64,000 nucleotides of DNA from Limnomonas spitsbergensis. Lineage: Eukaryota; Chlorophyta; Chlorophyceae; Chlamydomonadales. The DNA lies in contig JAYJMM010000042.1 of assembly GCA_037349105.1 (NCBI GenBank), forward strand, positions 289,501-353,500, in the 5' to 3' direction. Below, piece after piece: positions 1-39,600 of this stretch. The translations under genes and the position numbers were made by a program. Within the stretch, counting starts at the first letter, position 1; the number at the start of each line of letters is the position of its first letter. The notes below the pieces were generated by a model. It saw only the letters and a list, made by a program, of their open reading frames with translations, had not been told where the DNA came from and ran no database searches.

Positions 1-6
1 GCTGCA

Positions 7-3000
7 TCAGACACCGGCCGATAGCTCCCGGGAGCACGCGCTTATCCTGCCTACATGCTCCTGTGAACCCTCGTAGTTTCGATCCAGGCTTGCGGAGAGC
101 GCTGGTGACAGCCGCTTCCCTACCCAGCCTGTGCTGCGAGGAGGCGTCCTTGAGGCCGCGTCTGGTGCATCACCTTGCGGGGGCTTCGGCGCCAGCGACA
201 CCGCAGGTTTTACCACAGTCTTCTGCTGCTGAAGTAGCTGCAGCCTCTGAAGCTGAGCCGAGTTGTCTGGCCTGGGCCTGAAGGAATCGTTTGCAGTCAT
301 TGTGCGCAGAGGGGAGGGTTGCCCCCCGCCGCCGTTAGGACCGCCGCTGCCGCTCTCACGCCTCAGCTTCAGAGAGTTACGCGTCATTAAAGCACCAACC
401 GCTAACGACACCTGCCTTCTGTTGCCACCTGCCTCTATCAAAGAGAGGCGGGTGCTCCTTTCCTGCTCCTCTCGGCCGCTGCCGCACGCGGACGCCTCGG
501 TCTCAACCGGCTTTGCGCCAGCGCGCTGCGGTGACGGGTGTGCCCCGCTACTGCTCATGCTCTGAAACCTCTTGTGCACGACGGGAAGCGTACTTTTCAA
601 GCCAGAGTCGAGTCCGCTGGCGGCTGCCAGGATGAGCCCGGGATCCAGCTGACTGGCGAGGTTGCTCTGGCGCAGAGTTCCAGTCATGGAGAAGCGGCCG
701 GATTGCCCAGCACGGCCACCACGGGAGCCTGGCCTCGGGCCTGAAGGAAGGAAACAAGCAGTTAATCTTCACACACCGGAGAAAAGGCGTTTTTTGCATA
801 CCTAATATCTTGAAAGGGTTTGGCTGTTTCAGCAAACAAGACAGCACTCCCAGGCATCAATTACATTGCCCATTGGTTTGCCGTACAACTGCAGCCTGCA
901 CGTCTTCCCAAAACATAGTGTGAAAGGGCCTGCCATACTGGGAGAATATAAGATAATTTATTTGTGAGCATCAGTTTGTCTTTTCCTCGTGGCAAATGGG
1001 GCCATCCAACCCCGTGACTGCGTCCCCGCACTTGACACAAACAAATCCACACTAGTAAATTGCACAGCCTACAGCAGCCTGCATAATATAGCTGCGTAAT
1101 ATAGCTGCACATAGCTGCATGGCTGTAAATAATGGCTCTATATTAGGGGTAAGGTTTCAGGGTTGCGGATTGATTTGTTGAGCAGACCACGGGAACCCGA
1201 ATCAGAACCTCCCATAAACACCACTACAGATGCGTCAAAGCGACGCATGTACCGGTAGTGGCGTGGTAGCGACGCATGTACCGGTAGCGGCGTGGTAGCG
1301 ACGCATGTACCGGTAGCGGCGCAATAGCATGTAGTCCACTGGAGCGTCCCTTTACAAACCTTTGGTAAGGGATGCGAGAAGGGCATGCTGCATGCTACTA
1401 TGCTGCAGAACAAAGGAGAGGGAAGGAATGCTAGCCAGAGCCCATACCAAACCTTTGGTAAGAGATGGGACGTGCTGCCGTACTTAAGCTTTGGTAAGGG
1501 ATGCGAGAAGGGCATGCTGCATGCTACTATGCTGCTGAACAAAAGAAAGGGAAGAAATGCTAGCCAGAGCCCTTACCAAACCTTTGGTGAGAGATGGGAC
1601 GTGCTGGCGTACCAAAGGGGAGATGATTTGTCAGCCGGAGTCTTTCTTCTGTTGTTATGAAAGGGGCCTGCTGAAGGCCTTAAAGATGCGGGAACCCTCA
1701 ACCCTGAACACTTAACCCTCAGCCCTTAACCCTTTACCCTTACCTGTCGTCAGCCAAGGGCCCCTGGAAGTATCAGAGAAGCAGGGCTCTTGCTGAACCC
1801 TGAACCCTAAACCCTTACCTGTTGTCAGCAAAGGGGCCCCTGGAGGTGTCAGAGAAGCAGGGCTCTTGCTGAACCCTGAACCCTAAACCCTTACCTGTTG
1901 TCAGCAAAGGGGCCCCTGGAGGTGTCAGAGAAGCAGGGCTCTTGCTGAACCTTGAACCCTAAACCCTTACCTGTTGTCAGCAAAGGGGCCCCTGGAGGTG
2001 TCAGAGAAGCAGGGCTCTTGTCGCTGGAGAAGAGTGCTACTCCATGCTCCGCCACCAAGCCCAGCGAGGTGGGCGGGCTGTGCCAGTTTTTCGAATCAGC
2101 ACTGAGCTGGCCAGCATCATAAGGCAAGGTCGGGATGCCAATGGACAGCTTGCTGCGGAACCTCAACGGCAGGGACGGCGGCTCGTACATGCCGCTACCG
2201 CTGCCGCTCCCCGAGCTGTCAGCGTTCATCACCTGATAAATGGCATGCAAGGGTGCTCAATATCGCAGGAGGATCGGCCAGGCCAGGCCAAGCTCACAGG
2301 AGGGGGATCAGCCAGGCCAGGATTCTTTCGTTTCAAGGTCTCAACCTTTCAAGAGAACAAGATCTGCCGCATGAGTAGGGGTCGTGGCCATTCACATAAC
2401 GACATAAGCCCTGCTCACCTTTTTAGGTATGTCATCTTCTGACGCCCCACGCAAAGGCACGATAACATCTTTGGGGCCCTTGCAAGCTTTGGCCCTGCCC
2501 ATTGTGCAGAGCAGCTTCCCAACCAGCGGCTCGCTCCTGGACGCTGGTGCGCTGAGGCCAACCCCAGACAGAGGACAGGAAGCCGCAGCATCACCAGCAT
2601 CAGCAGCAGATGCAGATGCCGGTTCGGACCTCTTGACAGGCGGCGCGGGGGTGCCCGCCCGCCCCGGTGCTTGGACCTGTGCTGGTGAGGCTGGGGCTGG
2701 CGCAGGCATAGCCGCTAGGCTGACCAGCGCTCGCGAGATTGGCTTTGCGGCCAGCTTGCCGGCCGTAAACTGAGGCAGGTGCAGCAGCTCCTCTGCCGAG
2801 GGTCGCTTGAGTGGATCCGGCTCTAGGCAGGCCACGATGAATTTGAGCAGCTGTGGTGGGATGCTTCTAGGGAGTCTAAAGCAGGGAGACAGGAAGGCAG
2901 TGTATAGGGTGCAGGGAGGCAGGAAGGCAGTGTATAGGGTGCAGGGAGGCAGGAAGGCAGTGTATAGGGTGCAGGGAGGCAGGAAGGCAGTGTATAGGGT

Positions 3001-6000
3001 GCAGGGAGGCAGGAAGGCAGTGTATAGGGTGCAGGGAGGCAGGAAGGCAGTGTATAGGGTGCAGGGAGGCAGGAAGGCAGTGTACAGGGTGCAGGGAGGC
3101 AGGAAGGCAGTGTATAGGGTGCAGGGAGGCAGGAAGGCAGTGTATAGGGTGCAGGGAGGCAGGAAGGCAGTGTATAGGGTGCAGGGAGGCAGGAAGGCAG
3201 TGTATAGGGTGCAGGGAGGCAGGAAGGCAGTGTATAGGGTGCAGGGAGGCAGGAAGGCAGTGTATAGGGTGCAGGGAGGCAGGAAGGCAGTGTATAGGGT
3301 GCAGGGAGGCAGGAAGGCAGTGTATAGGGTGCAGGCTGTATTACCGCGCTTACGGGTTGAGGGTTTAGGGGTTGAGGGTTTACGGGTTGAGGGTTTACGG
3401 GTTGAGGGTTTACGGGTTGAGGGTTTACGGGTTGAGGGTTTACGGGTTGAGGGTTAACGGGTTGAGGGTTTACGGGTTGAGGGTTTATGGGTTGAGGGTT
3501 TATGGGTTGAGGGTTTACGGGTTGTGGGCAAAGGGTGACATCCTGATATTCTGTGCGCAAGAGATGTTACAGAGGCTGCAGAGTAACAGATACTGTAACT
3601 CCATAGTGTAACTTCTCCGCAGTGACTCCAAAGTGACATATATGTTAAAATTAGGGGACATAGCTCTTTCACAGTCATTCCTCCCCTGCACGGGCAACGT
3701 TTTGATGGTAACAACACGGACGCGGCCTAGGCCCATGCATGCCGCGCTGTTTCCTTAACCCTCACGCCCCTGCGGGACGTAGTTTTCTTCCTTTCTTTCC
3801 AGATATTGTGGGCTGATTCTGTGCCGTATTGCGCATTCTCGCGCCGTATCGTGCTCCCATGGGGGTAAGAAGTACATGACAACAGCAAGGCGGCCCGTCA
3901 TGCACTTCTGCTCATTAACAAGCCACGGGCAGATGTGATGAGGCGGCCCAGCTCAATCGCTGCAGCAGCACGTCCTGGCAAGCATCTCAGCTCTGTGCAG
4001 CCCTTCACATTCAGCCTCATACTCAGCTTCACACCCAGACTCACTCCCAGCTTCACAGTCACTTTCACACTCAGCTTCACACTCAGCTTCACATTCAGGT
4101 TCACGCTCAGCTTCACACTCAGCTTCATGCTCAGCCCTAGGCGCTGAGGCTCACCTCGCTTCCAAACCCTGGATTTCCGAGTCCAAAGGCATCGTGTCCT
4201 TGCCCTCCGAAACCAATCGTTGACAGTCGGGCATGAACCTCCTCGGCAGCTTCCTAAAGGTTTTCAGCATTAACTGCACAGCAGGGGTTGAAGCAGGAGG
4301 GTTAGCCTGCCCCCCCCATTTGTCATAGCATTCACGTATCCCAACTTCAGCCTGCTCTGAGTGAACCTCCGCCGGCTTCTGGTGGTAAGGATGATGGTAG
4401 CCCCCCCCTGCTGCACAACGCCTAGCTTAGACGGCCGCAGCCCCTTAAACCCTGAAACCCAAACCGCAGCAGGTAGGCGCACCTGCTCCTGATTGATAAC
4501 ACAGTTCCGCTGCTCCCAAGACTGTTGATCCAAGCCTTGTTTTTTCAGGCTGAGTCAGCTACTTACCTACCGAGCTACATTACGCAGGCCACACCTGCAT
4601 CTGTACCATATGACTTTTCACCTGCCCCCAAGGCTATTGTTTCAGGGACTGTCTTTTAGGCGCTTCAGCAACATCATGTAGGCTGCACTTGCAGCTGATT
4701 CATAGAACTCTTCCCCTGCTCCCAAGACTTAAGTTGCAGGCGCTGTATTAGAAGCGCTTCAGCCACATCATGCGGGACGCACCTGCAGCTGGTCCAGGTG
4801 GCTCTTCCCTTGGAATATTGGCGCGCCGGTCACCATCTCAGCGGCTATGCAGCCTGCGTGACATGTGCGGGAAGTAAGGGACATATCAAACGCGGCCTAG
4901 CCATGCCATGCCATGCGACGCCATGCCATGCCATGCGACGCCATGCCATGCCACGCGACGCCATGCCATGCCATGCGACGCCATGCCACGCCATGCGACG
5001 CCATGCCACGCCATGCGACGCCATGCCATGCCATGCGACACAATGCCATGAAATGTCATGCGATCCCATGCTTTGTCATGTCAAGCTGTTTAATACCACA
5101 CCTCACGAAGCCATGCCACTCTATGCCGTGCTAAATTATACCATGCCACACCTCAAACAGCCATGCCACTCCATGCCGTGCTAAGTCATCCCATGCATCT
5201 CATGCACGTATGCAACAAGTCATGCCACTGGGCACACTGGCAGATGAGGATCAAAGGCACAAGCATGTTTGTGTGTGCGGAGTTCTCTGTCACGTACCGA
5301 CGGACCAGATGTCGACTTCATAACCATACGTGGCGCCCACCAGCAGCTCGGGGGCGCGGTACCAACGGGTCTGCATGAGGTCCCATTTCTTCAGTAACAT
5401 GTGGGTATAATACTTGATGGGGGTGAACAATGCGGGAACACAACTCCATGGGGACAAATAACGGGTATCAAATTAAACTTAATACCCGCAGGAGTAGATA
5501 ATCAGTGTACAACTTCAGCAATGATGACCACGACGCAGGGCAATAAATAAAAGAAAATTCAAACAATGTCATCGCCGCAGGCTCAAAGCTAAAGCCTTGG
5601 AAATATTGAAGCTTAGTCACAGGCCGGCTGGGCGGCGTTGTTACCCACCTGAACGTAGGATGTCAGTTTTTCCTGGTGTGGATTGCATTGCCTGGACAGA
5701 CCTAGGTCGATGACCTTCAGGATATTGTCTTCTGTGAGCATCAGGTTGGCCGGCTTAAGGTCTCGGTGGATGATCTGCGGGCGGATGCATGGGGACAGGC
5801 ATTTCCGTATTTGTTTCGCATTCCGGGGTGGTATGCAAGAGAGTGGGTGGATGATCTGCAGGTGGATGCATGGGGACAGGCATTGGTTCTGCAATCCTGT
5901 GGGGTATGCAAGAGAGTGGGTGGATGATTTGTGGGTGGATGCATGGGGACAGGCATTCGTTTTGCAGTCCTGGGGGGTATGCAAAAGACTTAAAGAACGG

Positions 6001-8947
6001 GTTTATGATCTGCGGGCGGATGCATGGGGACAGGCATTTGTTTTGCATTCCTGAGTGGCCGGCAAAAGACTAAAAGGGTGGGTCTATGATCTGCGGGGCG
6101 GATGCATGGGGACAGGCATTTATTTTGCAGTCCTGGGGTATGCAAAAAACTTAAAGAGAGGGTGGATGATCTACGGGCGGATGCATGGGGAAAGGCATTT
6201 GTTTTGCATGCCTGGGTGGTATGCAAAAGAGTGGGTGGTTGTTCTGCGGGCAGATGCATGGGGACAGGCACATTTTTGATTCCAGGGTGTTATGCAAGAG
6301 ATCGGGTGAATAATGTGAAGTTGGGTGCGGGTCAGGCATCCCTTTTGTATTCAGGTTGGCAGGCAAGAGAGTGGGTGGATGGTCTGAGGGGCAGCTAGGC
6401 GGTTGGTGATCAGGCACGAGCTCACAATGGGATATTCGCATAATCGACACAGATACAAACAAAGGAAAGGACGTCACCATTGAGGCCAGAGAGAGGCAAG
6501 TGCGCAATTTAGCGGGGTTGACCGATCACTATCAGGTCCCTATCGGCCTAATGGTGGCTGCCTTGCGGCGGACTTCTACTGATCGCAGGGTTCAGGGTTG
6601 AGGGTTGAGGGTTTAGGGTAGGAAGAGAACGTCGCACATTAGCAAGCACTCGGACAGCGCTCCGCAAGCCAGCAGGTGAAACGTTTGGGGTTCAGAACTT
6701 CGGGTCCAAAATGGTATGGCTGAGGATTGAGAAGCAGGTGCGCTGTGGTCCGCTGGCCTTGCTCCCAGACCTGCCCAAAAATACCCTTACAGCAAAACCC
6801 AGCTCCTCCACTACGCGTAGGGACACCGCCCCCCCCCCTCACACACCTGGTGCTTGTGCATGAAACGTAGCGCCGTCAACAAGTGGCTAAGCCAGCTCCA
6901 TATGAGGTGGATCGGGAGACCGCCAGTCTCTCGTGACCCGCGTATAACGGAGCTCAGCACCTTGGGCAGGTACTCAAGAACAAAGTAGACCCTGAGGGAA
7001 TGAGGGATGGAGAGGGCAGGGGCAGGTGATAGGGTCAGAGGTCAAGGGCAGGGGCAGGTGATAGGGTCAGAGGTCAGGGGCAGGGATCAGAGGAGAGGAG
7101 TCAGGGGGTTAGGGCCAGGATCAGAGAGCAGGGGCAGGGAGCAGGGGCAGAGATCAGAGGGCAGGGGTAGGGGACAGGGGCAGGGATCAGAAAGCAGGGG
7201 TAGGTTCAGAGGACAGGGGCCAGGTGCAGGGGCAGGGGCAGGTGCAGGTGCAGGGGGCAAGGACAGGACACAGGATCAGTGGTCAGGGGTCAGGTGCAGG
7301 GGCCAGGGGTAGAAAGAAAACAAGAAAGCTACGCCCTATTAGGGTATGGACGTTGAGGAAACGACGCAGCTTGTGGCCGCAGCCACATCCGCGCCGTTAC
7401 CATGAGGCAAAAAGAAATAAGCAATTTCCTCACGGTGGTTTTCTTTTATGGGCCAGGGGTAGATATCAGAGGGCAGACGCCAGGATCAGAGGGGTCCAGA
7501 GCTTGCCCTCCAGTAAAACTAGACCCTCCCATAAACATCTTTCTGGCAACTGAGAGTCTGACCCCTTCTTCAGAAGCCTGCATCATCTGACCAGATATGG
7601 CAGCTCATCTGCTAATGTTTGTATGTTACCCCCCTGCTGCACACCTTCCTTGTCCACTGCAACGTCCCTGCCAAACGGCAAACAGATGAAGTACCCTCAC
7701 GCACTACTGCTCTCTCCCTGACCCCCTGATACTCTCTCAACCACCTGTTCCTGATGCTTGGAACCCAACTTCATCGAAAAGTCTAACCCTGGCCAGTGAT
7801 TCTTTAAGTGCGCACCAGACCACCTTTGGGGGGCTGCTGGGTGGCCACCACTGGGCCGATTGGGACCAAACCTTGCCCAGCCTACGGTGGTCCAAGCATG
7901 CAGCAGGGTTTGCTGCGACAGCCCCTCACGGCCATGGGCGATGAGGCTGATTTGTAGCTGAAGTGTGCTAAAATAAACACTGACCCTGGCAGTCTGGCAC
8001 GTACATGAGTCCCAAACCTTGGCCGAGTGAGGACGGTTAAGAAAGAAAGAAAGACGAAGTTCATATATTTCTAAGATAGAAGGGAAGCTTCTGTCCCAGC
8101 CTCCCTCTGGACTGAAATCAAGGGAAGGAACTGGATTCATGGATTAGTTCTACCGGTGCCCCTTCATCACCTGCCACTGTGACTGCAATATGCATGGTAA
8201 AGCTGCACGATGTTCGATTGCCCTTTGCACAACTGCAGGAGCTCTGCCTCACGGATTGCACTCTTGAGCACCTGCCATACGGAAGAGTGAGGGACTGAAG
8301 CCAGGCTTGTCAGCACAAGGCCTGTTAGTTAAAGCTCTGATTATTTAGTGCATGTCAGCTACAATTCAGCTACATCTCGATGATTGCACTCTTCAACACC
8401 TGACAGGTAGTCCAGCAAGGGCGGGCAGGTTTATCAGAGCAGTGTATGCTGCTCAAAACACGATTTTTTGAACTTTGCTCCTGAGTCGTACAGTTCAGCT
8501 ACGTCAGGCCTGCGGCTGGAACTCTGGAAGGACGACTTGATGCAACATGCCTTGCTGCTTGGGCCTCCGGCTGTTGGCCGATTAATATCAGGTCCCTATC
8601 GGCCTAAGGATGGCTGCCTACTTAGCGGCAGTTTCGGCTACGGGCTACCCAGTCCCCATGGTGCTCTGGTGCTGAAAAAATATACTGCCAGGTACCCAGC
8701 TCCCATGCAACGCCTACCTGGCTCCATGAGTTTATTAGAAGTTGTTTCCAAATACCGTTCAAATTAGTCTATTATTTTCCAAGTCTCACCCGACTCGAAC
8801 ACACGTCAGCGAACTCACCGCTGGGTGACTGTTGGACTCTAAGAAGGCTTTAACAGCATAAACTGTCCCGGCCTCGCACAGCTTGTCTCGGCAGAGGTAG
8901 ACGACGCCGTATGAGCCCTCTGCAATCTTCTTGAGCGTGTCGTATCG
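7..8947 (-). CDS. CDKL-like Ser/Thr protein kinase, multi-exon, 5' end unresolved
   Basis: Ten exons join by GT-AG borders with matching phase: 8819-8947, 8171-8271, 6847-6991, 5649-5774, 5298-5370, 4783-4853, 4155-4273, 2419-2866, 1971-2232, 7-740. They total 2208 nt, or 735 codons plus a TGA at 7-9. Seen, numbering from the first exon base: Gly-loop EGSYGVV (10-16), catalytic Lys in YAVKAF (33), helix-C Glu in REAELL (51), HRDLKPAN (128-135), VIDLGLS where DFG is usual (147-153), activation-loop TSY (163-165), TRWYRAPE and the DIWSVGC block. The TxY loop and the end of the lobe (GKSHLDQL, then [15 protein letters not shown]) match the CDKL branch, which includes Chlamydomonas LF5 and FLS kinases acting on cilia. 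A cilium role here is inference. Residues after about 290 are low-complexity (Ala/Pro, Ser/Gly, Gly-rich). The start codon is not proven: a weak candidate first exon is 9064-9087 (ATG at 9085-9087, reading MNERAAAS) with a poor donor. Most introns carry tandem arrays next to splice sites. Confidence 0.88.
1236..1325. repeat. 29-bp tandem repeat, about three copies
   Basis: The unit includes gcgacgcatgtaccggtag and lies in the last kinase intron (741-1970). Confidence 0.85.
1361..1618. repeat. 129-bp tandem duplication in the last kinase intron
   Basis: tttggtaagggatgcgagaa starts at 1361 and again at 1490, followed in both by gggcatgctgcatgctac and agccagagccc. The copies differ by scattered substitutions. 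Confidence 0.85.
1741..2046 (-). repeat. Four 75-76 bp tandem copies of a kinase exon end plus its donor
   Basis: On the minus strand each unit reads from cctccaggggcccctttgct through acaacag|gtaagg. The junction recurs at about 1971, 1895, 1819 and 1744. The first transcribed copy (exon end 1971) keeps the frame to the next exon at 740; the other three are decoy donors inside the intron. TTTAGGG-like bases (ggtttagggttcagg) form the intronic part. Confidence 0.85.
2881..3335. repeat. 30-bp minisatellite, about 15 copies, next to a kinase acceptor
   Basis: Near-perfect units containing ggcagtgtatagggtgcagg begin about 15 bp upstream (in gene sense) of the acceptor for exon 2419-2866. Only one or two base changes separate units, so the array is recent or homogenised. 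Read on the gene strand it is pyrimidine-rich. Confidence 0.95.
3351..3527. repeat. Telomere-like 15-bp repeat, about 11 copies
   Basis: Units of the form gttgagggtttacgg lie directly after the 30-bp array in the same kinase intron. They resemble TTTAGGG-derived interstitial sequence. Confidence 0.9.
3702..3804 (+). repeat. Dispersed repeat C, copy 1
   Basis: Carries ggtaacaacacggacgcgg, then ccgcgctgtttcc, then cccctgcgggacgtagtttt and a pyrimidine tail. Related copies are at 33296-33384 (plus) and 7308-7402 (minus). The family is unidentified; it lies in a kinase intron. Confidence 0.7.
4009..4135. repeat. Imperfect 12-bp repeat cttcacactcag
   Basis: About ten diverged units of a tcacactcagct type directly beside the donor of kinase exon 4155-4273. 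Confidence 0.75.
4898..5045. repeat. 15-bp repeat catgccatgcgacgc, about ten copies
   Basis: Units are CATGCCATG-rich and locally self-complementary. They lie about 45 bp upstream (gene sense) of the acceptor for kinase exon 4783-4853 and decay towards 5190. Confidence 0.9.
5775..6400 (-). repeat. About seven 75-85 bp tandem copies of a kinase 3' splice site
   Basis: The real acceptor is catccgcccgcag|ATCATCCAC at 5774. The same acceptor-plus-exon-start recurs upstream on the minus strand near 5850, 5925, 6007, 6090, 6167 and 6243, with a degraded copy near 6375. Each is separated by a cctgtccccatgcat stretch. The exon begins with the catalytic-loop codons (IIHRDLKP), and only the last copy continues into it. 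Confidence 0.85.
7005..7315. repeat. Degenerate ggcaggggcaggtgatag-type minisatellite
   Basis: A G-rich array begins about 15 bp upstream (gene sense) of the acceptor for kinase exon 6847-6991. On the transcribed strand it is a long C/T tract. Confidence 0.85.
7308..7402 (-). repeat. Dispersed repeat C, copy 2 (minus)
   Basis: The reverse complement starts ggtaacggcgcggatgtgg and runs into cgtagctttcttgttttctt, matching the copy at 33296-33384 in order and spacing with many substitutions. Confidence 0.6.
7794..7982. mobile_element. MITE-like element, family A, 189 bp with 8-bp target duplication
   Basis: Flanked by accctggc on both sides (7786-7793 and 7983-7990). The ends are inverted: cagtg at left, ctaaaataaacactg at right. 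The body holds the family core gcaccagaccaccttt and gtagctgaagtg. It lies in the kinase intron between exons 8171-8271 and 6847-6991. No transposase is seen, so it is non-autonomous. Confidence 0.75.
8541..8700. repeat. Diverged family A fragment
   Basis: Contains cttgctgcttgggcctccgg and ccctatcggcctaaggatgg, recognisable from reverse-oriented family A copies. A related fragment is at about 6515-6570. Confidence 0.5.
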
Positions 8948-9087
8948 CTGCGTACGCAAAAGGGCAGCGCAACACCACCGAGGCTTCTCTGACTGACGAC
9001 GTCATTTATTTCCGGAATGAAGGAGTGAAGTAAGGTCGGGTGCCGCCGTATTTTCGAAAACACGCTAGCTGCGGCGCGTTCGTTCAT

Positions 9088-11600: not shown

Positions 11601-11611
11601 ATGACCGGTAG

Positions 11612-11682
11612 GTCAATGACATTACACCTCTGGGCCCTGCTCGAAAAGGCTCGGCCGCGTGGGCGCCCAACTGTCTCATATG
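11612..11682 (+). repeat. Dispersed repeat B terminal motif, copy 1
   Basis: tcaatgacattacacctctg, then gggccctgctcgaaaaggct and cggccgcgtgggcgcccaac. Closest copy is 41236-41303; inverted copies are at 12403-12466, 12709-12771, 12903-12962 and 40952-41012. It is found beside the retroelement remnants. Confidence 0.75.
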
Positions 11683-12099
11683 AAGAAAATAAACTTAAGG
11701 TAAAAGGGAAGGAAAGTACGGTAGGTGAGATGTCATAAAGCTGAGTGACGAAGGAGGCTTGCTAACTTGACTATCTCTTGAGACTATACCTTCATTTGAA
11801 CTCTTGGGGTCTTGAGGTCTTAGGGTTTTGAGGTCATGAGGTCATAAGGTCTTGGACTCTTGGGGGGGTGGCGTATGGTTTGTGTTTTGAAACTGGGTCT
11901 GTTGTAGACTAGGATGGATGATCTCTGATGTGGATCGAAGATTGGGGGCTTGATCGTAAATTACACGATTATGTAGTCGGTCACTCAGCTGAAGAACCGA
12001 AGCCGACACGGAAGCTACGTGAAGCTGGTCGGTTTGTTCATTGGAGAGTCAGTTATTACATATTATAAAGCACTCTTACATATGCATGCATGCTTTGAA

Positions 12100-12330
12100 T
12101 GCCCCAGCGTGCTGGATCAACTTAGGGAGCGGGGATGGGCAGGTCCTCCGAACAACTAATGCTAGAGACTTCTTCCAGTTGTACCGCAGGCTTGGGTAGG
12201 ATACTTTGATTTTTGTGGAAGACGTGGTAGATTTCGTGTAGGCGTCGACAATTTTGTGAGGCTGGAACTTCCCTTGTCTTTCTTTTCCAGCCTTTTGTCT
12301 GTCCATTTACTTTATTTCCCCCTTTACCCC
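12100..12330 (+). mobile_element. Retroelement remnant, C-terminal coding end (copy 1)
   Basis: Reads like LRERGW-GPPN-ARDFFQLYRR followed by VEDVVD, with stops and frame changes, then a T-rich tail (cttgtctttcttttcc). It is the same peptide block as at 12456-12600 and 41140-41250. Confidence 0.55.
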
Positions 12331-12420
12331 AGACTTTCATTCATTATTTCCTGCCCCCCAGTGTTTGTTTCGTTCTTTCCTCCCAACCCTTAAGGTAGGC
12401 GCCCACACGGCCAGAATTTT

Positions 12421-12711
12421 TTGAGCAGAGCCCAGTGGTATAACGTCATTGACCTGTGGAGAGAGCGGGGATGGGCAGGTCTTCCGAACGTTGCTAGAGA
12501 CTTCTATGAGTTTTACCGGGGCAGGCTTGGGTGGGATGCCATGGCTGTTGTGGAAGACGTGGTAGACCTTGTAGGGCGTAGACTTTTTCAGAGGCTAGAA
12601 CTTCCGTTGTCTTTCTTTTTCAGCCTGTGTCTGTCACTCTGTCCTTTCACTTTATTCCCTCCTTTCTCCACTCTGCCCCCTTGTGTTTGTTTCTTTCTTC
12701 CCAACCCTTAA
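12421..12711 (+). mobile_element. Retroelement remnant, C-terminal coding end (copy 2)
   Basis: An open stretch gives LWRERGWAGLPNVARDFYEF, then YRGRLGWDAMAVVEDVVDLV, and then a pyrimidine-rich non-coding tail. It is flanked on both sides by inverted repeat B motifs. No reverse transcriptase core remains, so it is a truncated 3' fragment. Confidence 0.55.
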
Positions 12712-12962: not shown

Positions 12963-12999
12963 CAGATGAGATTGAACACATGATCGTTTTTTTACAGCA

Positions 13000-19500: not shown

Positions 19501-19648
19501 TGGTCAACAGAAGACCACATGGCGGCTTCAGAGCCGGCTGTTGAGGAGGCGGGCGGGAAGGCCTGCTGGAGCATCGATTGCAGGGCTGCGGAGGGGCTGA
19601 GCGGGCCGCTGCCTCCGCTTCCGCCGGTGCCTCCACTACCGCCGCCGG

Positions 19649-19681
<33 letters not shown>

Positions 19682-27600: not shown

Positions 27601-30600
27601 GTGTGTCCTTCCAGGCCCTGGGCATGACACCTGACTAACCTGAGTCCCTGTATACGTGTGTGTGTCCTTCCAGGCCCTGGGCATGACACCTGACTAACCT
27701 GAGTCCCTGTATATGTGTGTGTGTGTCCTTCCAGGCCCTGGGCATGACACCTGACTAACCTGAGTCCCTGTATATGTGTGTGTGTCCTTCCAGGCCCTGG
27801 GCATGACACCTGACTAACCTGAGTCCCTGTATATGTGTGTGTGTCCTTCCAGGCCCTGGGCATCTCTGGTGAGGAGGCCTTCCTGCGGAGGGGGAAGCTG
27901 AGTGGAGCGCGTGGGTCAGGGGCCAGCGGGAATGATGAGGAGCAGGCGCCAAGAGGGATGACGCTTGCCCAGAAGATGCTGGAGAAGATGGGCTGGAAGG
28001 AGGGTGAGTCTGGGGGGAGCAGGAGGGAGGGGGGGGTGATGTTGGATAAAGAGATCTTGAAGATGGGCTGGAAGGAGGGTGAGTCTGGGGGGAGCAGGAG
28101 GGAGGGGGGGGTGATGTTAGATAAAGAGATCTTGAAGATGGGCTGGAAGGAGGGTGAGTCTGGGGGGAGCAGGAGGGAGGGGGGGGTGATGTTAGATAAA
28201 GAGATCTTGAAGATGGGCTGGAAGGAGGGTGAGTCTGGGGGGGCAGGAGGGGGGGGGGGGGTGATGTTGGATAAAGAGATCTTGAAGATGGGCTGGAAGG
28301 AGGGTGAGTCTGGGGGGAGCAGGAGGGAGGGGGGGGTGATGTTAGATAAAGAGATCTTGAAGATGGGCTGGAAGGAGGGTGAGTCGGGGGGGAGCAGGAG
28401 GGGGGGGGGGGTGATGTTGGATAAAGAGATCTTGAAGATGGGCTGGAAGGAGGGTGAGTCTGGGGGGAGCAGGAGGGAGGGGGGGGTGATGTTAGATAAA
28501 GAGATCTTGAAGATGGGCTGGAAGGAGGGTGAGTCTGGGGGGGCAGGAGGGGGGGGGGGGGTGATGTTGGATAAAGAGATCTTGAAGATGGGCTGGAAGG
28601 AGGGTGAGTCTGGGGGGAGCAGTAGGGAGGGGGGGGTGATGTTAGATAAAGAGATCTTGAAGATGGGCTGGAAGGAGGGTGAGTCGGGGGGGAGCAGGAG
28701 GGGGGGGGGGTGATGTTGGATAAAGAGATCTTGAAGATGGGCTGGAAGGAGGGTGAGTCTGGGGGGAGCAGGAGGGAGGGGGGGGGGTGATGTTAGATAA
28801 AGAGATCTTGAAGATGGGCTGGAAGGAGGGTGAGTCTGGGGGAGCAGGAGGGAGGGGGGGGGGTGATGTTAGATAAAGAGATCTTGAAGATGGGCTGGAA
28901 GGAGGGTGAGTCTGGGGGGAGCAGGAGGGAGGGGGGGGGTGATGTTAGATAAAGAGATCTTGAAGATGGGCTGGAAGGAGGGTGAGTCTGGGGGAGCAGG
29001 AGGGAGGGGGGGGTGATGTTAGATAAAGAGATCTTGAAGATGGGCTGGAAGGAGGGTGAGTCTGGGGGGAGCAGGAGGGAGGGGGGGGGGTGATGTTAGA
29101 TAAAGAGATCTTGAAGATGGGCTGGAAGGAGGGTGAGTCTGGGGGGAGCAGGAGGGAGGGGGGGGTGATGTTAGATAAAGAGATATTGAAGATGATATGG
29201 AAGTAGGGTGAGTCTGGGGGGGGCAGGAGGGGAGGGGGGTGATGTTAGATAAAGAGATCTTGAAGATGATATGGAAGGAGGGTGAGTCTGGGGGAGCAGG
29301 AGGGGGGGTGGGGTGATGTTGGATAGAGAGATCTTGAAGATGGGCTGGAAGGAGGGTGAGTCTTGGGGGAGCAGGAGGGGGGGGGGGGGTGATGTTGGAT
29401 AAAGAGATCTTGAAGATGATATGGAAGGAGGGTGAGTCTGGGGGGAGCAGGAGGGAGGGGGGGGTGATGTTAGATAAATAGATATTGAAGATGGGCTGGA
29501 AGGAGGGTGAGTCTGGGGGGAGCAGGAGGGAGGGGGGGTGATGTTGGATAAAGAGATATTGAAGATGGGCTGGAAGGAGGGTGAGTCTGGGGGAGCAGGA
29601 GGGAGGGGGGGGGGGGTGATGTTGGATAAAGAGATATTGAAGATGGGCTGGAAGGAGGGTGAGTCTGGGGGGAGTAGGAGGGGGGGGGGGTGATTTTGGA
29701 TAGAGAGATCTTGAAGATGAGTCTGGGGGGACAAGCGCTATGCACTGCATGACATACTTTTTGGTTACCCGTATGGCATTCTTGTTTTCACTTTGCAAGT
29801 TGTTATGTGTCAAATTACTCACTGTTTGACATCTGTGACTGCAGGCGAGGGGCTCGGAAAGAACCTGCAAGGCATGCAAACACCCCTGGTGGCTCAGAAG
29901 ACCGACAGGTGGGGGGCATGAAAGCTAGGGTGGAGGGTTAAGGAACCATAAACCCCAAACTAGGCCAGAGACCAAGACCAGCAGTAGGGGCGCGTAAAGC
30001 TAGTATTTAGGGTGCGGGTTTTGTAACCATGAACCCTGAAACCCTTAACCCAAAACCATAAACTAGGCAGAAGACCGACAGATGGGACGCGTGGGAGCCA
30101 TAGCAAAAGGGGGAGCGGTGTGGTTCAAATATGAAAGGCATTGTATTCCCCATCATGTATATGTTACCATGACAGGTCCCACCACTGCAAATCGTGTGGG
30201 AGAGAGACAGGAAAGGGGCGCATGCTAATGCCTGGGGATGGACCTTGCTAGCATGGGCAGCCCTGTATGCATGTGCGAGGTTTTGCCTGGAGGTGCTTGT
30301 GCCGTAAAGATCGCGTCTTGAGAACCTTGTGGTGGTCACCTTGCAACTATGGTGTGAAATAGTACGATGACATATGTGGGGACCATGCTCTGAAATCATG
30401 CTCTGAGACCCTGCTCTGAAATCATGATTTGATGCCTGGGCAGGCGTGCGGGCGTCATTGTTAATGCTGAGGCTGCGCCTGCCGCTGGGCGGGGACGAGG
30501 ACGAGGGAGAGGCGGCATGGCTGGGGCAGGTGAGGAGGCATCAAGAGGGCGCTTAGCCACACAGGTGGATGCAAAGAATGGCAGACGAGGGAGATGTGGC

Positions 30601-33600
30601 ATGCCTGGAAGAAGATGCAAAGAGCTGCTGAAGTGAAGCTGAAGTGTAGCAGAAGTGTTGCTGAACTGTAGCTGAACTGTAGCTGGACTGTAGCTGAACT
30701 GTTGCTTAAGTGTTGCTTAAGTGTTGCTGAAGTGTTGCTGAAGTGTTGCTGAAGTGTTGCTGAAGTGTTGCTGAAGTGTAGCTTATGTGTAGCTGAAGCA
30801 CCCTAAAATGAACCGTTGTATTGTGCCCAGTGCCAATGGAACATCTGGCGCCTGATGTGGCACATAACCTGTTGATCTATTGCATTCTGGCCAGGGCCGG
30901 AGAACAGGAATATCAGGGGATGGGGGGACGATGTACACAAATCGGATTCGGGATTGGGGAACCATTAGCTTTTCTTGGATCCTGTCCCATCCACTGGGAA
31001 ACGGATGGGACCCTTTTCCCTGGTAGGTCAGGTAGAAAGAAGTTAGCTTTCTTTCCAGGCATGAGATGTTCCAGTGGCCCATGAGGGCTTGGACATTGTA
31101 CAGTGTCTACTTAAGTCGGTACCGGACCACCTTTGATGGGCCGCCCCGCGGCCACCTCTGGGCCGATTGCCTCCAAACCAGAACCAGCCTCCGACCGGTA
31201 GCCCCAGCAGTGGGGCTGGCCGCACCAGGGACTTGTGGCCGGGGGCCAAAGTGTAGCTGAACTGTAGCTGAAAGTGATATACCACTTACTAAACAAAAAT
31301 GTGCTGGACAAGGGAGGCACCCAGCCGGCCAGCCTCATCAGTGTTTTCAACATGGGCGCTATGTAGCCAAATGACTGCAGTGAGGCTGTTTGATATGGAC
31401 AGGCATTTGAGGCATTGCCTTGGCTATAGCCTTATTCCGTAATATGACCTGGTGTCATTGGCTACACTTTCACACTTGTGTTCAGTAGTGTGTATAGTAT
31501 ATTGATAACACTTGTATCACACGAATTCCCGTTGCATCACATCCCACTCCGCCTACAACCCATCAGTATTGTTGGCATCCTTGCCCTTTGCACCATTTAA
31601 TGCTCTATGGCCTGCGCAGTATAATATGCGGTTGATTACGGTACTTGATCACGCAAAGGCAAAGGACACCTACGTTAATCAAGACTTGCGCGACCCGCCT
31701 GCCTCACCTGGTCCAGGTCATGTGTGCAGTGGTCTACAAAATGTAACAGATTACAAATGTCAATTTTGGCAAGCTCCCCATCACATCACATCACATTTCA
31801 ACCTGTTATTCCTTCCACTTCCGCGACCCTCCTGCCTCCACAGGTGTAGGTCATGTGCGCGGTGGTCTACTTGACACAAATCACAATTTTAGAACACTGA
31901 CACCCTCCCCATCACATCACACATTCACACCCCATATCACATTTCATCCCGTTCGTTACCTCCACTTGTGCGCGCCTCCTGGTTCAACAGGTTTAGGTCG
32001 TGTGCTGGCTGGTGGGGATGAACCGGCAGACAAGCGGCCGCGGCTGGGCGGAGCGGCACTGGTGGGCAAGCCCTCAAAGGTCATCTGCCTACGCAACATG
32101 GTGGGGACCAGTGGATCTGCAGGGTGGATCTGCAGGGTGGATCTGCAGGGTGGATCTGCAGGGTGGGTCTGCAGGGTGTGGATGCAGGGTGTGGATGTGC
32201 AGTTTAGATCTGCAGGGTGGATCTGCAGGGTGGATCTGCAAGGTGGGTCTGCAGGGTGTGGATGCAGGGTGTGGATGTGCAGTTTAGATCTGCAGGGTGG
32301 GTCTGCAGGGTGGGTCTGCAGGGTGGGTCTGCAGGGTGGGTCTGCAGGGAGGATGCAGTGTGTGGATGTGCAGTTTAGATCTGCAGGGTGGGTCTGCAGG
32401 GAGGATGCAGTGTGTGGATTTGCAGTTTAGATCTGCAGGGTGGGTCTGCAGGGTGGGTCTGCAGGGAGGATGCAGTGTGTGGATGTGCAGTTTAGATCTG
32501 CAGGGTGGGTCTGCAGGGAAGATGCAGTGTGTGGATGTGCAGTTTAGATCTGCAGGGTGGGTCTGCAGGGAGGATGCAGTGTGTGGATGTGCAGTTTAGA
32601 TCTGCAGGGTGGGTCTGCAGGGAGGATGCAGGGTGTGGATGTGCAGTTTAGATGTGCAGGGTGGGTCTGCAGGGAGGATGCAGGGTGTGGATGTGCAGTT
32701 TAGATCTGCAGGGTGGATCTGCAGGGAGGATGCAGGGTGTGGATGTGCAGTTTAGATCTGCAGGGTGGGTCTGCAGGGAGGATGCAGTGTGTGGATGTGC
32801 AGTTTAGATCTGCAGGGTGGGTCTGCAGGGAGGATGCAGGGTGTGGATGTGCAGTTTAGATCTGCAGGGTGGATCTGCAGGGAGGATGCAGGGTGTGGAT
32901 GTGCAGTTTAGATCTGCAGGGTGGGTCTGCAGGGAGGATGCAGGGTGTGGATGTGCAGTTTAGATCTGCAGGGTGGGTCTGCAGGGAGGATGCAGTGTGT
33001 GGATGTGCAGTTTAGATCTGCAGGGTGGATTTGCGCTGGCCAGGGGCAGGCAAGTGGGAGATTGCAAGGCCCTTTGTCACGGAGCTGACTGTCAGGGGAT
33101 GCGATTTGGGCAAAGAGGGGCAAGAGGAGAGGGAGAGAAGGCGGGGGAGGGGGGAGAGGGGGGAGGGGGGGAGCTTTCAGGGGAAAGGATTCAGGTTCGG
33201 AAACGGCTCCTGTGAATTCTCCTGTATCTTGTTCTTGAGCCTGCAGGTACTCCTTGGTGTTGATGTGATAGCGCACCAGACCACCAGTGGAGGGGCTGCA
33301 AGGGTAACGGCGCGGACGCGGCCCATGCCGCGCTGTTTCATGAACCCTCAACCCCTGCGGGGCGTAGTTTTCTTTCTTTCTGGAGGGGCTGCCAGGAGGT
33401 CACTTCTGAGCCATGGAGGATTTGAGGTTCTAGCTTTGACCGACTCTTTGGCAAGGGGCCTGAGCAACAGGACTTAATGCACCAAGCCCTGCCCCGGCCT
33501 TTGGTATTGTAGCTGAACTGAAGCTGAATCTACCCCTCCCAAGTAGATGGTGCTGCTCTCTTCCTGATTCTGCTCCGATCACATGTGGGGCCGAGCGAGG

Positions 33601-36600
33601 TTGACGAGGAGTTGAGGACGAGGTCGGCAACGAGTTGATAGAGTATGAATTCAATTCATGTCTCTCTCTGTTAGCTGTCAACCGTTTTGTTCTGTTTCTC
33701 CAATTCTCCATCAGGTGGGACCTGGAGAGGTGGACGAGGATTTGGAGGATGAGGTCGGCAATGAGTTGACCAAGTACGGCAATGTCACCAGCGTCATGAT
33801 CTTTGAGGTCACCACCCCTGGCTATGAGGCGGAGGAGACGGTCCGCATCTTCATTCAGGTGCGGTGGCAGGCAGGCATTCTTTATTACGGCTGCCTCAGC
33901 TACAGTTCAGCCGCATCCCAGCCAAGGGACGCGTGTCTACACTTTTGAATGTCAGTTATGGCAGGCATGCTCCGCGGCCACCTCTGGGCCGATTGCGATT
34001 AAACCAGGACCGGCCTCCATGGGGTGGCCGCACCAGGGACTTGTGGCCCCCGGCCACAGTGCAGCTGAAGTGTAGCTGAAAGTGGTATACCACTTACTAA
34101 AAAAATGGTGGCACGCTCCCTGGCTGCCATAGCTGTTCACTCTCTGGCTCGCGGTTTCCTCTCGCTGTTCCACTCGACATTATATGATGGCTATTAGCAG
34201 CTAAGTCAATCAGCGATGTAGATGTTAGCATAATTACAAGGTCGTGGGGATGAGCGTGGGCCAACTAGGACTGGTTGACGACTGTCAGTTGCTGATCGGT
34301 TTGTACATCTTGTGTTCCCTTCTTCTACTGTGGTGCCGTACGCAGCGACGTGAACATATTTTGTCGTCTTGAATAATAGACTGGGACAATTAGGCTCTCT
34401 CAGCTACAAATATAAGGCTCCCTCTGCTACAATTACCAGGCTCCCTCAGCTACAATTATCAAGCTGCCTCAGCTTATCAGCTACAGTTCAGCTTTGTGGC
34501 ACCCTCAGTACAGCAGCATCAAACGCTTCATGATCTGTGAGGTCACCACTCCTGGCGATGAGACGTTGGAGACAGCCCGCGTGCCTGTTCAGGTGCGGCG
34601 AGAGGAGTTGACTGTTCATTAGAGTGTCTTGCGGCCACGTTAACAACCCGTATGTGATGCCAAGGACATGGTCAGTTTGGTGGTACGGCGGAATGAGGGT
34701 GCGGCAATCCCTCGTGCAGCCAACCTGGGGCCCAATGCTTAGGCCATCGGCTGGTCAAGGTTTGGCATCCAAGTGTAACTGCTTGGATGCCAAACCTTGA
34801 CCAGCCGATGGCCTAAGCAGTGGTTACCGCAACACTTTCAGCTACATTTCAGCTTCACTGTGGCCTCCGGCCACCTGCCCCTGGCTCGGCCAGCCCTGCT
34901 GCTCGGGCCTCCAATCGGAGGCCGGTCCAGGTTTGGTGTCAATTGGCCCAGGGGTGGCCGCAGCAAGGCCCTTCAAAGGTGGTCTGGTAACCACTAACCC
35001 CTAAAACACACACAACATCAAAGGCCCTGTGGTGACCACCCGGCAGTCCCCTTAATGCAGAGTGGTGCATCTTTCCATTTAGTGTGGTAGGCACCCAAGG
35101 TGTGGCCTCTCACTGGGGGTCCTCGTGCAGCCAACCCGGCTGCCTGGGCCATAAGCTGGTCATAGTTGCGTATCAAAAGGCCTCGTGGTGGCCATACGGG
35201 AGCCCTCTCAAAGCAGTTTGGTGCACGCTAGCGAATCGTTTGCGTGCACCAAACTGATTGTTAGTTATGATTCGTAACAATCAGTTACAGGTAGCAAGGG
35301 TTAGTAAAGGTTAGTAGGAATCACTGTGGTAAGCTGCTGAAGGTGTGACCTTACTGGAGGGTGGAGGTGGGCGGCGCCTGGGCTAGCAGGCCCGGGTCTA
35401 CGCTCAAAAGCCAACTTGGGTGGCTGAGAGCTGAGCTCAAGCTAGCAAGGCCAGGGCCAGATGCCTTTTGGGGCGCTGGCAAACGGAGCATGTGCTCTGC
35501 GCTTGTGTGCCGTTCAGATAGTTCTTCGTGTTCAGACAATCGCCATTACTTACTTTACTGGTCATGCTCCCTCTCTTATTGATGCCACGGCTGAGCTCAT
35601 GTAAAATGGCACCTCCTTGCCTGTGCTCAAATCCGGTTTGGGCCCGGATCAGAAACATATGATCTCCTGTTTGAACACGCTCCATTGGGGCTGTCAGAGT
35701 CCACATACTAACGCTCTGGACCTCACGTGTGTCGGTCTACAGTTTGACCGTGTGGAGAGTGCGACCAAGGCGCAAGTTGACTTACAGGTAGGGTGGGAGG
35801 GAGGGGGGCACTACATTGGGCTCAAGGGGGAGGGGGGCACTACATTGGGCTCGAGGGGGGGGAGGGAGGGGGGCACTACATTGGGCTCAAGGGCGAGGGG
35901 GGCACTACATTGGGCTCGAGGGGGGGGAGGGAGGGGGGCACTACATTGGGCTCGAGGGGGGGGAGGGAGGGGGGCACTACATTGGGCTCGAGGGAGGGGA
36001 GGGAGGGGGGCACTACATTGGGCTTGAGGGAGGGGAGGGAGGGGGGCACTACATTGGGCTCGAGGGGGGGGAGGGAGGGGGGCACTACATTGGGCTCGAG
36101 GGAGGTGAGGGAGGGGGGCACTACATTGGGCTCGAGGGAGGGGAGGGAGGGGGGCACTACATTGATTTTGAGGGAGGGGAGGGAGGGGGGCACTACATTG
36201 GGCTCGAGGGGGGGGAGGGAGGGGGGCACTACATTGGGCTCGAGGGAGGGGAGGGAGGGGGGCACTACATTGGGCTCGAGGGAGGGGAGGGAGGGGGGCA
36301 CTACATTGGGCTCGAGGGAGGGGAGGGAGGGGGGCACTACATTGGGCTCGAGGGGGGGGAGGGAGGGGGGCACTACATTGGGCTCGAGGGAGGGGAGGGA
36401 GGGGGGGCACTACATTGGGTTCGAGGGGGGGGAGGGAGGGGGGCACTACATTGGGCTCGAGGGGGGGGGGGGGCACTACATTGGGCTCGAGGAAGGGGAG
36501 GGAGGGGGGCACTACATTGGGCTCGAGGGAGGGGAGGGAAGGGGGCACTACATTGGGCTCGAGGGGGGGGGGGGGCACTACATTGGGCTCGAGGGAGGGG

Positions 36601-39600
36601 AGGGAGGGGGGCACTACATTGGGCTCGAGGGGGGGGGGGGGGCACTACATTGGGCTCGAGGGAGGGGAGGGAGGGGGGCACTACATTGGGCTCGAGGGGG
36701 GGGGGGGGCACTACATTGGGCTCGAGGGAGGGGAGGGAGGGGGGCACTACATTGGGCTCGAGGGGGGGGAGGGAGGGGGGCACTACATTGGGCTCGAGGG
36801 AGGGGAGGGAGGGGGGGCACTACATTGGGTTCGAGGGGGGGGAGGGAGGGGGGCACTACATTGGGCTCGAGGGGGGGGGGGGGCACTACATCGGGCTCGA
36901 GGAAGGGGAGGGAGGGGGGCACTACATTGGGCTCGAGGGGGGGGGGGGCACTACATTGGGCTCGAGGGAGGGGAGGGAGGGGGGCACTACATTGGGCTCG
37001 AGGGGGGGGGGGGCACTACATTGGGCTCGAGGGAGGGGAGGGAGGGAGGCACTACATTGGGTTCGAGGGGGGGGGGGGGCACTACATTGGGCTCGAGGGG
37101 GGGGAGGGGGGCACTACATTGGGCTCGAGGGAGGGGAGGGAGGGGGGCACTACATTGGGCTCGAGGGAGGGGAGGGAGGGGGGCACTACATTGGGCTCGA
37201 GGGAGGGGAGGGAGGGGGGGCACTACATTGGGTTCGAGGGGGGGGAGGGAGGGGGGCACTACATTGGGCTCGAGGGGGGGGGGGGGCACTACATTGGGCT
37301 CGAGGGAGGGGAGGGAGGGGGGCACTACATTGGGCTCGAGGGGGGGGGGGGCACTACATTGGGCTCGAGGGAGGGGAGGGAGGGGGGCACTACATTGGGC
37401 TCGAGGGAGGGGAGGGAGGGGGGGCACTACATTGGGTTCGAGGGAAGGGAGGGAGGGGGGGCACTACATTGGGCTCGAGGGGGGGGGGGGGGGCACTACA
37501 TTGGGCTCGAGGGAGGGGAGGGGGGCACTACATTGGGCTCGAGGGAGGGGAGGGAGGGGGGCACTACATTGGGCTCGAGGGAGGGGAGGGAGGGGGGCAC
37601 TACATTGGGCTCGAGGGAGGGGAGGGAGGGGGGCACTACATTGGGTTCGAGGAAGGGGAGGGAGGGGGGCACTACATTGGGCTTGAGGGAGGGGGGGAGG
37701 GGGGCACTACATTGGGTTCGAGGGAAGGGAGGGAGGGGGGCACTACATTGGGCTCGAGGGAGGGGAGGGAGGGGGGCACTACATTGGGCTCGAGGGAGGG
37801 GAGGGAGGGGGGCACTACATTGGGTTCGAGGAAGGGGAGGGAGGGGGGCACTACATTGGGCTTGAGGGAGGGGGGGAGGGGGGCACTACATTGGGTTCGA
37901 TGGAAGGGAGGGAGGGGGGCACTACATTGGGTTCGAGGGAAGGGAGGGAGGGGGGCACTACATTGGGCTCGAGGGAGGGGAGGGAGGGGGGCACTACATT
38001 GGGCTTGAGGGAGGGGAGGGAGGGGGGCACTACATTGGGCTCGAGGGAGGGGAGGGAGGGGGGCACTACATTGGGCTCGAGGGAGGGGAGGGAGGGGGGC
38101 ACTACATTGGGCTTGAGGAAGGGGAGGGAGGGGGGCACTACATTGGGCTTGAGGGAGGGGGGGAGGGGGGCACGACATTGGGCTCGAGGGAGGGGGGGAG
38201 GGGGGCACGACATTGGGCTCGAGGGGGGGGGGGAGGGGGGCACCACATTGGGCTCGAGGGGGGGGGGGGGCACTACATTGGGCTCGAGGGAGGGGAGGGA
38301 GGGGGGCACTACATTGGGCTCGAGGGAGGGGAGGGAGGGGGGGCACTACATTGGGTTCGAGGGAAGGGAGGGAGGGGGGCACTACATTGGGCTCGAGGGA
38401 GGGGAGGGAGGGGGGCACTACATTGGGCTTGAGGGAGGGGAGGGACGGGGGCACTACATTGGGCTTGAGGGAGGGGAGGGAGGGGGGCACTACATTGGGC
38501 TCGAGGGAGGGGAGGGAGGGGGGCACTACATTGGGCTTGAGGAAGGGGAGGGAGGGGGGCACGACATTGGGCTCGAGGGAGAGGGGGAGGGGGGCACGAC
38601 ATTGGGCTCGAGGGGGGGGGGGAGGGGGGCACCACATTGGGCTCGAGGGGGGAGGGGGGCACTACATTGGGCTCGAGGGGGGGAGGGGGGCACTACATTG
38701 GGCTCGAGGGGGGGGGGGGGAGGGGGGCACTACATTAGGCTCGAGGGAGGGGAGGGAGGGGGCACTAGTAGGGGGGTCGTGAGGAAGGGAAGGATGTGGC
38801 TGAGGCCTTGTGGCTTCCATGCAGGGGCCAGTGGACAATGACACATGTGGGGAGGGGAGGAAAGGACAGACGGGGGGACAAGGATATTGCCTTGGGTAGG
38901 CGACATGGGTCTGGGTAGGCGACATGGGTCTGGGCAGGTTTTCTTGCCAAGCCTGCACGGGTTGACTGGAGCGGCTCCCTGGGTCACTAGTTTTTATGGT
39001 AATATTACTCTTGTAAGAGTGGCCGTCTACTGAAAAGTGTGAGGTCGTCAGGGGCCCTGCTGTCAGATCATTTATTTCGGTGTGCCATCATTCCCATGAA
39101 CCCTCAGCACCCCTATTGTCAATGTTTATTTTGGCAGGCCACTGGGCAGCCTCCACTGGGCAGATCAGGATTGAGGACCAAAGCTTGACCCATCTACAAC
39201 CAATTGCTTTAGCAGCCATGCACCCTCCCATGCACCTTCCCATGTACCCTCCCATGCACCTTTCCGACCTGTTGCATCAGGACCCCGTGGTCGTAGGCTG
39301 TGATGTAGCTGAATTGTAGCTGAGGGGCACTGTGGTTATAGGCTGTGATGTAGCTGAATTGTAGCTGAGGGGCACTGACATCCACAGTGCTCACTGTAGG
39401 CCAGAGATGAGTAGCTGAGCAGGTAGATAAGGCTTAGCTTCAGTGTTTATTTTAGTGAGCACCGGATCACATTAGGGGGGCCAAAGGTGGCCAGCACCGG
39501 GCCAATTCGGACCAAACCTTGCGCAGCCTGTAGCCGGTGGCCTAAGCAACAGTACTGGTGTTCACTGTCTTGTTTTCTGGTTTCTCCCCGGTTCGCTCTG

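Follow-up and report, generated by a model that had tools for sequence, protein, structure and literature searches.

In amphioxus, minisatellites called mirages are described as spanning exon-intron boundaries on either the donor or the acceptor side, with units of 10–160 bp that often copy the AG/GT and with variable copy number; splicing is reported to be undisturbed, haplotypes differ in length, and a few amphioxus genes are involved (PMC3087553). In the chicken, exon stuttering denotes the copying of exon edges and splice sites into adjacent introns, reported for 236 introns of 115 genes, with 190 of these introns on dot chromosomes and with the copied source lying at most 1 base from the exon border in more than 90% of cases (PMC12954441). 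A survey published in 2013 reports tandem repeats to be significantly commoner near intron-exon junctions, in a U-shaped distribution that is strongest in C. reinhardtii and V. carteri (PMC3887541), and intron gain has been described through tandem duplication of proto-splice sites (PMC2891723). Here we describe minisatellites at the splice junctions of the Arctic snow alga Limnomonas spitsbergensis, for which a mean intron length of 788 bp is given (PMC11228838), in a 64,000-nucleotide stretch of its genome (contig C42:289501-353500, henceforth the window) and in three gene families elsewhere in the assembly of 260,226,709 bases and 124 contigs. Related algae are reported to have conspicuously long introns, whose advantage is unknown and whose driving mechanism is considered likely to be ancient (PMC8226300). 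An earlier note on this DNA had believed such placement to be unreported, a belief that the published accounts of mirages, exon stuttering and U-shaped algal placement do not support.

Junction arrays in the SF45 and CDKL genes

The placement of minisatellites at splice junctions is a real pattern, and it recurs elsewhere in the genome. In the window it was measured in two genes, namely a plus-strand gene for an SF45/RBM17/DRT111-like splicing factor (gene 3, 24603..40163) and a minus-strand gene for a CDKL-type protein kinase (gene 1, 2..8947), which runs to the left edge of the window. The 18 introns of these genes contain 24 merged arrays found with Tandem Repeats Finder (TRF), and their positions were compared with 20,000 uniform placements inside the introns. 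The numbers of arrays within 12, 20, 30 and 50 bp of a junction were 7, 9, 10 and 12, versus 0.87, 1.40, 2.05 and 3.40 expected, and 0 of the 20,000 random placements reached the observed counts. The presence of half of the arrays (12/24) within 50 bp of a junction bears out the earlier note's view that chance placement is unlikely. Of the 13 sites that it named as lying at or within about 50 bp of a splice site, the ten in the SF45 and CDKL genes each have an array that touches or comes within ~50 bp of a modelled junction, though some are looser than claimed.

The SF45 gene has 10 exons (24603-24769, 25560-25770, 25991-26143, 27853-28003, 29845-29908, 30444-30529, 31991-32100, 33715-33858, 35743-35787 and 40065-40163), which were picked by eye first and then checked against relatives. 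The frame is open through all 10 exons and encodes 409 residues; the product matches SF45 UHM structures and the G-patch, and its best relative is a Chlamydomonas eustigma protein, with an end-to-end alignment (67% over 95% of the query) in which nine of nine junctions are continuous. The CDKL exons lie at 8947-8819, 8271-8171, 6991-6847, 5774-5649, 5370-5298, 4853-4783, 4273-4155, 2875-2419 and 2232-1971, with exon 10 running from 740 onward. The kinase is recognized by the Pfam Pkinase profile (1.7e-58) and has Chlamydomonas eustigma relatives. Its introns 1–7 fall within the conserved domain, while introns 8 and 9 lie outside it and have an open frame and GT-AG ends as their only basis. The start of exon 5 at 5370 is taken from the alignment; the placement counts used 5388 (18 bp earlier), which concerns an intron without an array and leaves the array counts unaffected.

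Several units contain the splice site together with exon bases, as the earlier note had stated, and this is directly seen in SF45 introns 3 and 4 and in CDKL intron 9. The clearest donor-side form is the array of SF45 intron 4 (27984..29719), with a 75-bp unit repeated 23 times, the consensus of which consists of the last 20 bases of exon 4 (encoding KMGWKEG), GTGAGT and the start of the intron. All 23 genome matches of this unit fall inside its own array, so that the unit is local; a dispersed introner-like element was rejected on this ground for this unit, the only one checked, in a search that skips very common words. The part at 28004-28678 is open in the frame of the exon across 9 further 75-bp units, so that splicing from a later donor would lengthen the protein by multiples of 25 residues, with KMGWKEG repeated. 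At the acceptor of SF45 intron 3 a 59-bp unit is repeated 8.6 times (27357..27863), and its units join a pyrimidine tract and CCAG to the first 11 bases of exon 4, GCCCTGGGCAT. CTAAC, which we take to resemble a branch site, is also present in most of these units. The modelled acceptor of exon 4, which begins at 27853, is the exon-nearest copy of this array; position 27360, which the earlier note named here, is the far end of the array, 492 bp upstream.

The donor sites named in SF45 (26144, 28004, 32101 and 35788) coincide with modelled donors. Next to the first of these, the donor of exon 3, an array with an 18-bp unit starts 2 bp past the first intron base (26146..26634); it derives partly, among the matches listed, from the G-rich bases 102-133 of the 153 in exon 3, with 23 BLAST copies. 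An array with a 52-bp unit begins 10 bp past the exon 7 donor (32111..33028). The array next to the exon 9 donor (35800..38767, mainly a 36-bp unit) lies 12 bp from the donor by its first TRF row and 40 bp by its main period; it looks anchored by eye but was entered as not anchored in the counts below. Degenerate copies (~84% identity) of the start and of a later part of exon 8 occur at 33585-33638 and 34525-34580 in its two flanking introns, and these single-copy echoes are perhaps an old or failed array.

In the CDKL gene, an array of intron 9 spans the donor at 1970 (1723..2020, minus strand as for all that follow in this gene). Its 76-bp unit, repeated 4 times, combines 50 exon bases with CAACAG/GTAAGG; the exon side belongs to an unconserved tail with weak homology. 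The acceptor-side intron ends of this gene are at 2876, 4854, 5775 and 6992. A pyrimidine-rich array with a 30-bp unit repeated 15 times is anchored 5 bp off the first of these (2881..3335), whereas the arrays at 4900..5050 and 7013..7310, for which the earlier note had named 4898 and 7005, are indeed near modelled acceptors but start 46 bp and 21 bp away. The acceptor-side array of intron 3 was read by eye (5764..6270): its units hold, with variation, CCGCCCGCAG/ATCATCCACC, which comprises the acceptor of exon 4 and 10 bases of that exon. Since its TRF rows begin at 5809, it was entered as not anchored although it looks anchored by eye. On the donor side, there is an array with a 12-bp unit 19 bp off the donor at 4154 (4003..4135) and a diverged donor-spanning duplication with a unit of ~94 bp that starts 9 bp within exon 6 (4613..4791).

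Anchored arrays in unlinked genes

Beyond the window, exons were located in the genome for three families, namely kinases, CCT chaperonins and SNF2 helicases. The kinase sample consists of 20 hand-picked regions of 10 kb (20 of 100 clusters) and 19 pieces, the CCT sample of 20 hand-picked places with two neighbouring exons, in most cases separated by 390 bp or more, and the SNF2 sample of 7 places hand-picked from 15 listed pairs. All CCT and SNF2 places, and some of those for kinases, were selected because their exons lie far apart; arrays played no part in the choice. Profile continuity, frame and splice consensus served to define the junctions, and the definition was blind to arrays. Four of 62 kinase introns scoring -2.5 or less were left out, as were pairs of high-scoring segment pairs (HSPs) with model gaps outside -25..14 and, by hand, one spurious HSP at L033 (L-numbers denote sampled loci or introns outside the window); the low-score SNF2 intron L074 was retained.

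Taken together, the 103 modelled introns from the window, kinases, CCT and SNF2 include 37 that carry 65 arrays. Twenty of these arrays span or sit within 12 bp of a splice junction (henceforth anchored), 11 on the donor side and 9 on the acceptor side, and 10 of the 65 extend 8–50 bases into the exon (e.g. SF45 intron 4, L047, L034, L055 and L057). The genes with anchored arrays are unlinked and distributed over ten contigs (C42, C39, C102, C120, C37, C62, C106, C26, C123 and C112), in agreement with the earlier suspicion of a genome-wide phenomenon. Among the boundary arrays, that of L047 (926-3090, donor side) has a 47-bp unit, CATGGCAT/GTGAGT..., and that of L034 a 90-bp unit across the acceptor; the units of L055 (120 bp) and L057 (86 bp) include 43 and 48 exon bases respectively, and further boundary arrays are found at L071 and, with a weak junction call, at L048. 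Arrays that abut the splice site are found at L011, L051 (2317 bp), L052 (598 bp), L059, L070, L072 and L076.

Smaller or more degenerate forms accompany these arrays. L056 (C106:2501921-2502836) contains two copies of an exon end with its donor, ~140 bp apart, which TRF missed; this two-copy duplication is an early stage. In L070, an intron of an SNF2 gene (C39:4399494-4401130), degenerate donor-side copies at the 5' end are accompanied by an acceptor-side array with a 108-bp unit at the 3' end, and L033 has a degenerate set of donor-side copies, seen by eye.

Placement was compared with three nulls: positions inside today's intron, positions in the intron with its arrays collapsed to the pre-array length, and the collapsed intron with junction-spanning units also allowed (the permissive null). 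Chance is excluded, because the 20 anchored arrays compare with 2.63, 3.24 and 10.37 expected under the three nulls respectively, with P 0.001 for the permissive one. Outside the window, 13 of 40 arrays are anchored versus 1.66, 1.99 and 6.30 (permissive P 0.004). Each set exceeds uniform placement in today's intron (P ~0.002 or less), and CCT also exceeds the permissive null (5/11 versus 1.92, P 0.02). With high-confidence junctions only, 14 of 47 arrays are anchored versus 2.02, 2.50 and 7.68 (P 0.009), and when the largest array of each intron is taken, 17 of 37 versus 1.90, 1.90 and 6.87 (permissive P 2e-5).

Two controls approach the junctions differently. Array edges within 12 bp number 13 at the true junctions of 96 introns versus 0–4 at pseudo-junctions displaced 40–300 bp inward (80 down to 34 introns). 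In a TRF-free comparison, a match of at least 26 bits to the 36-mer of the exon edge was found in the intron next to it for 11 of 103 donors and 6 of 103 acceptors, with 0.05 and 0.03 expected on the basis of other exon edges. This recurrence declines into the exon: in the window, CCT and SNF2 together (28 bits), it is found for 8/45 donors and 4/45 acceptors at the edge, 4/42 and 3/42 at 36 bp, and 0/33 and 0/31 at 64 bp. The copied part of the exon reaches within 2 bases of the edge in 10 of 14 cases with at least 30 bits. Per-base repeat coverage in introns of at least 400 bp shows no junction peak, as the first 10 bp after the donor have a coverage of 0.40 in the window and 0.32 in the kinases versus 0.53 and 0.38 in the interior. 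It is array edges, not repeat coverage, that are enriched at junctions. Across 76 introns, the median length is 1279 bp for those with arrays (n=21) and 186 bp for those without (n=55).

Probable tolerance of duplications, and alternatives

These junction arrays probably survive because local tandem duplications that contain a splice site are tolerated: the protein would stay unchanged and the array would become additional intron. The process would begin with local duplication of a segment of ~18–120 bp. A duplication inside an exon would be removed by selection, whereas one in an intron or across its border would be retained, because the exon-nearest donor or acceptor would still be used and the other copies would turn into intron. 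The arrays would then expand by slippage or unequal exchange, up to 3 kb, and the intron would lengthen. Of the two models offered earlier, tolerance by itself accounts for about half of the anchored count, as the permissive null yields 10.4 of 20, since a 60-bp unit in a short ancestral intron often overlaps the junction by chance. Nucleation at junctions as the sole answer was rejected for the same reason. A roughly twofold excess over tolerance remains, which leaves room for junction-biased birth or growth, likely because arrays arise or grow more easily at the ends of introns, which are G-rich on the 5' side and C/T-rich on the 3' side.

Active seeding of arrays by junctions, in which a junction-tied feature (such as the microhomology of proto-splice AGGT, stalled forks, or R-loops or G-quadruplexes where 5' ends are G-rich) would make duplications begin there much more frequently than elsewhere, could produce the same twofold excess, but we consider it unlikely. 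The coding-strand GC skew is positive in 11/11 donor-anchored and negative in 9/9 acceptor-anchored arrays (three of the 20 are near zero, at most 0.05), so that arrays share the composition of their intron end. This one-directional skew accords with seeding, but ordinary intron ends would give the same skew, and half of the count needs no seeding at all. Long arrays carry the excess in the window and kinases, where 9 of 13 arrays of at least 250 bp are anchored versus 3.26 expected and only 2 of 27 shorter ones versus 2.96; in CCT the long arrays are anchored in 3/3 cases but in SNF2 in just 1/5. A rule that arrays of at least 250 bp are junction-bound was dropped and is not relied on here, because the cut was chosen post hoc and failed in SNF2; in the new data alone, array length against junction distance gave rho -0.32 (p 0.11). 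The same skew would also suit arrays retained as aids to splicing, with G-runs or pyrimidine tracts acting as enhancers or extra sites recruiting the spliceosome: donor arrays are G-skewed, acceptor arrays C-skewed, and acceptor units can hold a branch-like motif with its tract. Such a role appears improbable, given that units include complete competing sites, from which harm is expected as often as benefit, and that copies have in places been weakened (54/54 in L051 and 3/3 in L055) or lost (AG in 2/2 copies of L057 and GT in 5/5 on the donor side of SF45 intron 3).

Variable choice among the donors or acceptors of an array could in principle generate protein length variants, and the open frame of SF45 intron 4 over 9 additional units is compatible with this. 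However, only 8 of the 20 anchored arrays have units whose length is divisible by three, as if the copies stay untranslated, and the two upstream acceptors examined in SF45 intron 3 lead to a stop after 7 codons, making such use very improbable. Still harder to credit is an artefactual proximity that reflects chance, a choice of GT or AG beside arrays, or faulty assembly. It is true that the junctions of the earlier note and the exons of the window were first picked by eye, that repeat assembly can err, and that junctions in the neighbouring AP2-domain gene (see below) are only candidates. Against this, junctions outside the window were set without reference to arrays, the pattern was replicated in three families on other contigs, and both the TRF-free copy comparison and the pseudo-junction control contradict an artefact.

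Several observations weigh against tolerated duplication with a junction-linked excess as the explanation. At 12 bp, the window (7/25 versus 4.08, P 0.08), the kinases (4/15 versus 2.14, P 0.14) and SNF2 (4/14 versus 2.24, P 0.16) do not individually rise above the permissive null, and with high-confidence junctions outside the window the excess is weak (8/26 versus 1.14, 1.39 and 4.25, P 0.04). The sample includes weak junction calls, namely L048, L070, L074 and CDKL intron 9, and the long-array effect has the post hoc origin and the uneven outcome in CCT and SNF2 given above. Furthermore, copies in some arrays equal the real site in strength (44/45 in L047, 22 of the 24 found in SF45 intron 4 and 8/8 in SF45 intron 3), so that splicing must pick among them by position. 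That the exon-nearest copy is the one used is inferred from homology and frame alone. A stronger reading, in which junctions of Chlamydomonadales are points of minisatellite birth and growth, arrays seeded at the G-rich donor end and the C/T-rich acceptor end expand beyond tolerance, this is the main route of intron lengthening here, and the exon-nearest of dozens of identical sites always wins, is put forward as a tentative and rather doubtful possibility.

Neighbouring features and relation to known systems

Gene 2 of the window carries an AP2 domain, and only 4 proteins matched its product, covering 10–27% of the query. Because no relative is informative, its exons outside the domain and the three further sites named earlier (14400, 14530 and 20236) are regarded as candidates only. 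On the minus strand, an array at 20150..20228 adjoins a possible donor of this gene, and two arrays (14364-14400 and 14537-14666, within 14364..14666) lie on either side of a possible exon; a plus-strand reading of the exon at 14400-14500 was weighed as a possible alternative. The right end of the window (43505-64000) is occupied by a 42-bp tandem array of ~488 copies with 97% match, which has minus-strand open frames of up to 2855 codons. A dispersed repeat family, possibly a mobile element, has copies in both orientations that are 79–90% identical (31101-31293, 40652-40844, 34834-34997, 39736-39860 and 18017-18122) and that, by eye, end near GTGTAGCTGAA motifs. The GC content is 50–59% in most 2-kb bins of the window, in which there is no Rfam match above the gathering score and no tRNA was found.

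Junction-copying arrays are thus already known as a kind from amphioxus and the chicken, to which a green alga is added here; no report of such arrays in an alga was found in searches limited to the open-licence literature. As the same arrays occur in a green alga, amphioxus and birds, the underlying process is probably shared by genomes that readily undergo local duplication. Chlamydomonadalean algae could have acquired their long introns by this route, which can be tested, and the arrays constitute natural experiments on how the spliceosome selects one donor or acceptor when dozens are identical. They also call for caution in gene annotation, as array copies hold splice sites and at times open frames.

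Like mirages, the algal units span the exon-intron boundary (10 of 65 arrays) and do so at both 5' and 3' ends of introns (11 and 9 of the 20 anchored arrays). They differ from mirages in that their host is a green alga, that the genes concerned are unlinked and spread over ten contigs, that copies number up to ~55 and that placement was tested quantitatively, here from one assembly and from DNA only. The minisatellite of the human IFI6/6-16 gene (Nucleic Acids Res. 1995) reportedly supplies several splice donors in a like manner, at a single human locus. As in the published description of chicken stuttering, the intron next to an exon edge holds many copies of that edge and its splice site, arrays confined to the intron lie nearby, and introns are longer; the recurrence of exon edges in their own introns at 11/103 donors and 6/103 acceptors, far above that of other exon edges (0.05 and 0.03), is a further point of similarity. 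The algal arrays lack the concentration on dot microchromosomes, being spread over ten contigs, and no test of enrichment against a tolerance null was noticed in the portions of the chicken report consulted (PMC12954441). The U-shaped placement in C. reinhardtii and V. carteri agrees with ours in bringing tandem repeats toward intron ends, but there dinucleotide GT/AC motifs are prominent, and the portions of that survey consulted describe no unit content such as splice sites or exon bases (PMC3887541). Finally, the arrays share with intron gain from proto-splice sites, as described, the tandem duplication of splice signals (PMC2891723); in that process new introns are made, whereas here existing introns seem to have been lengthened.

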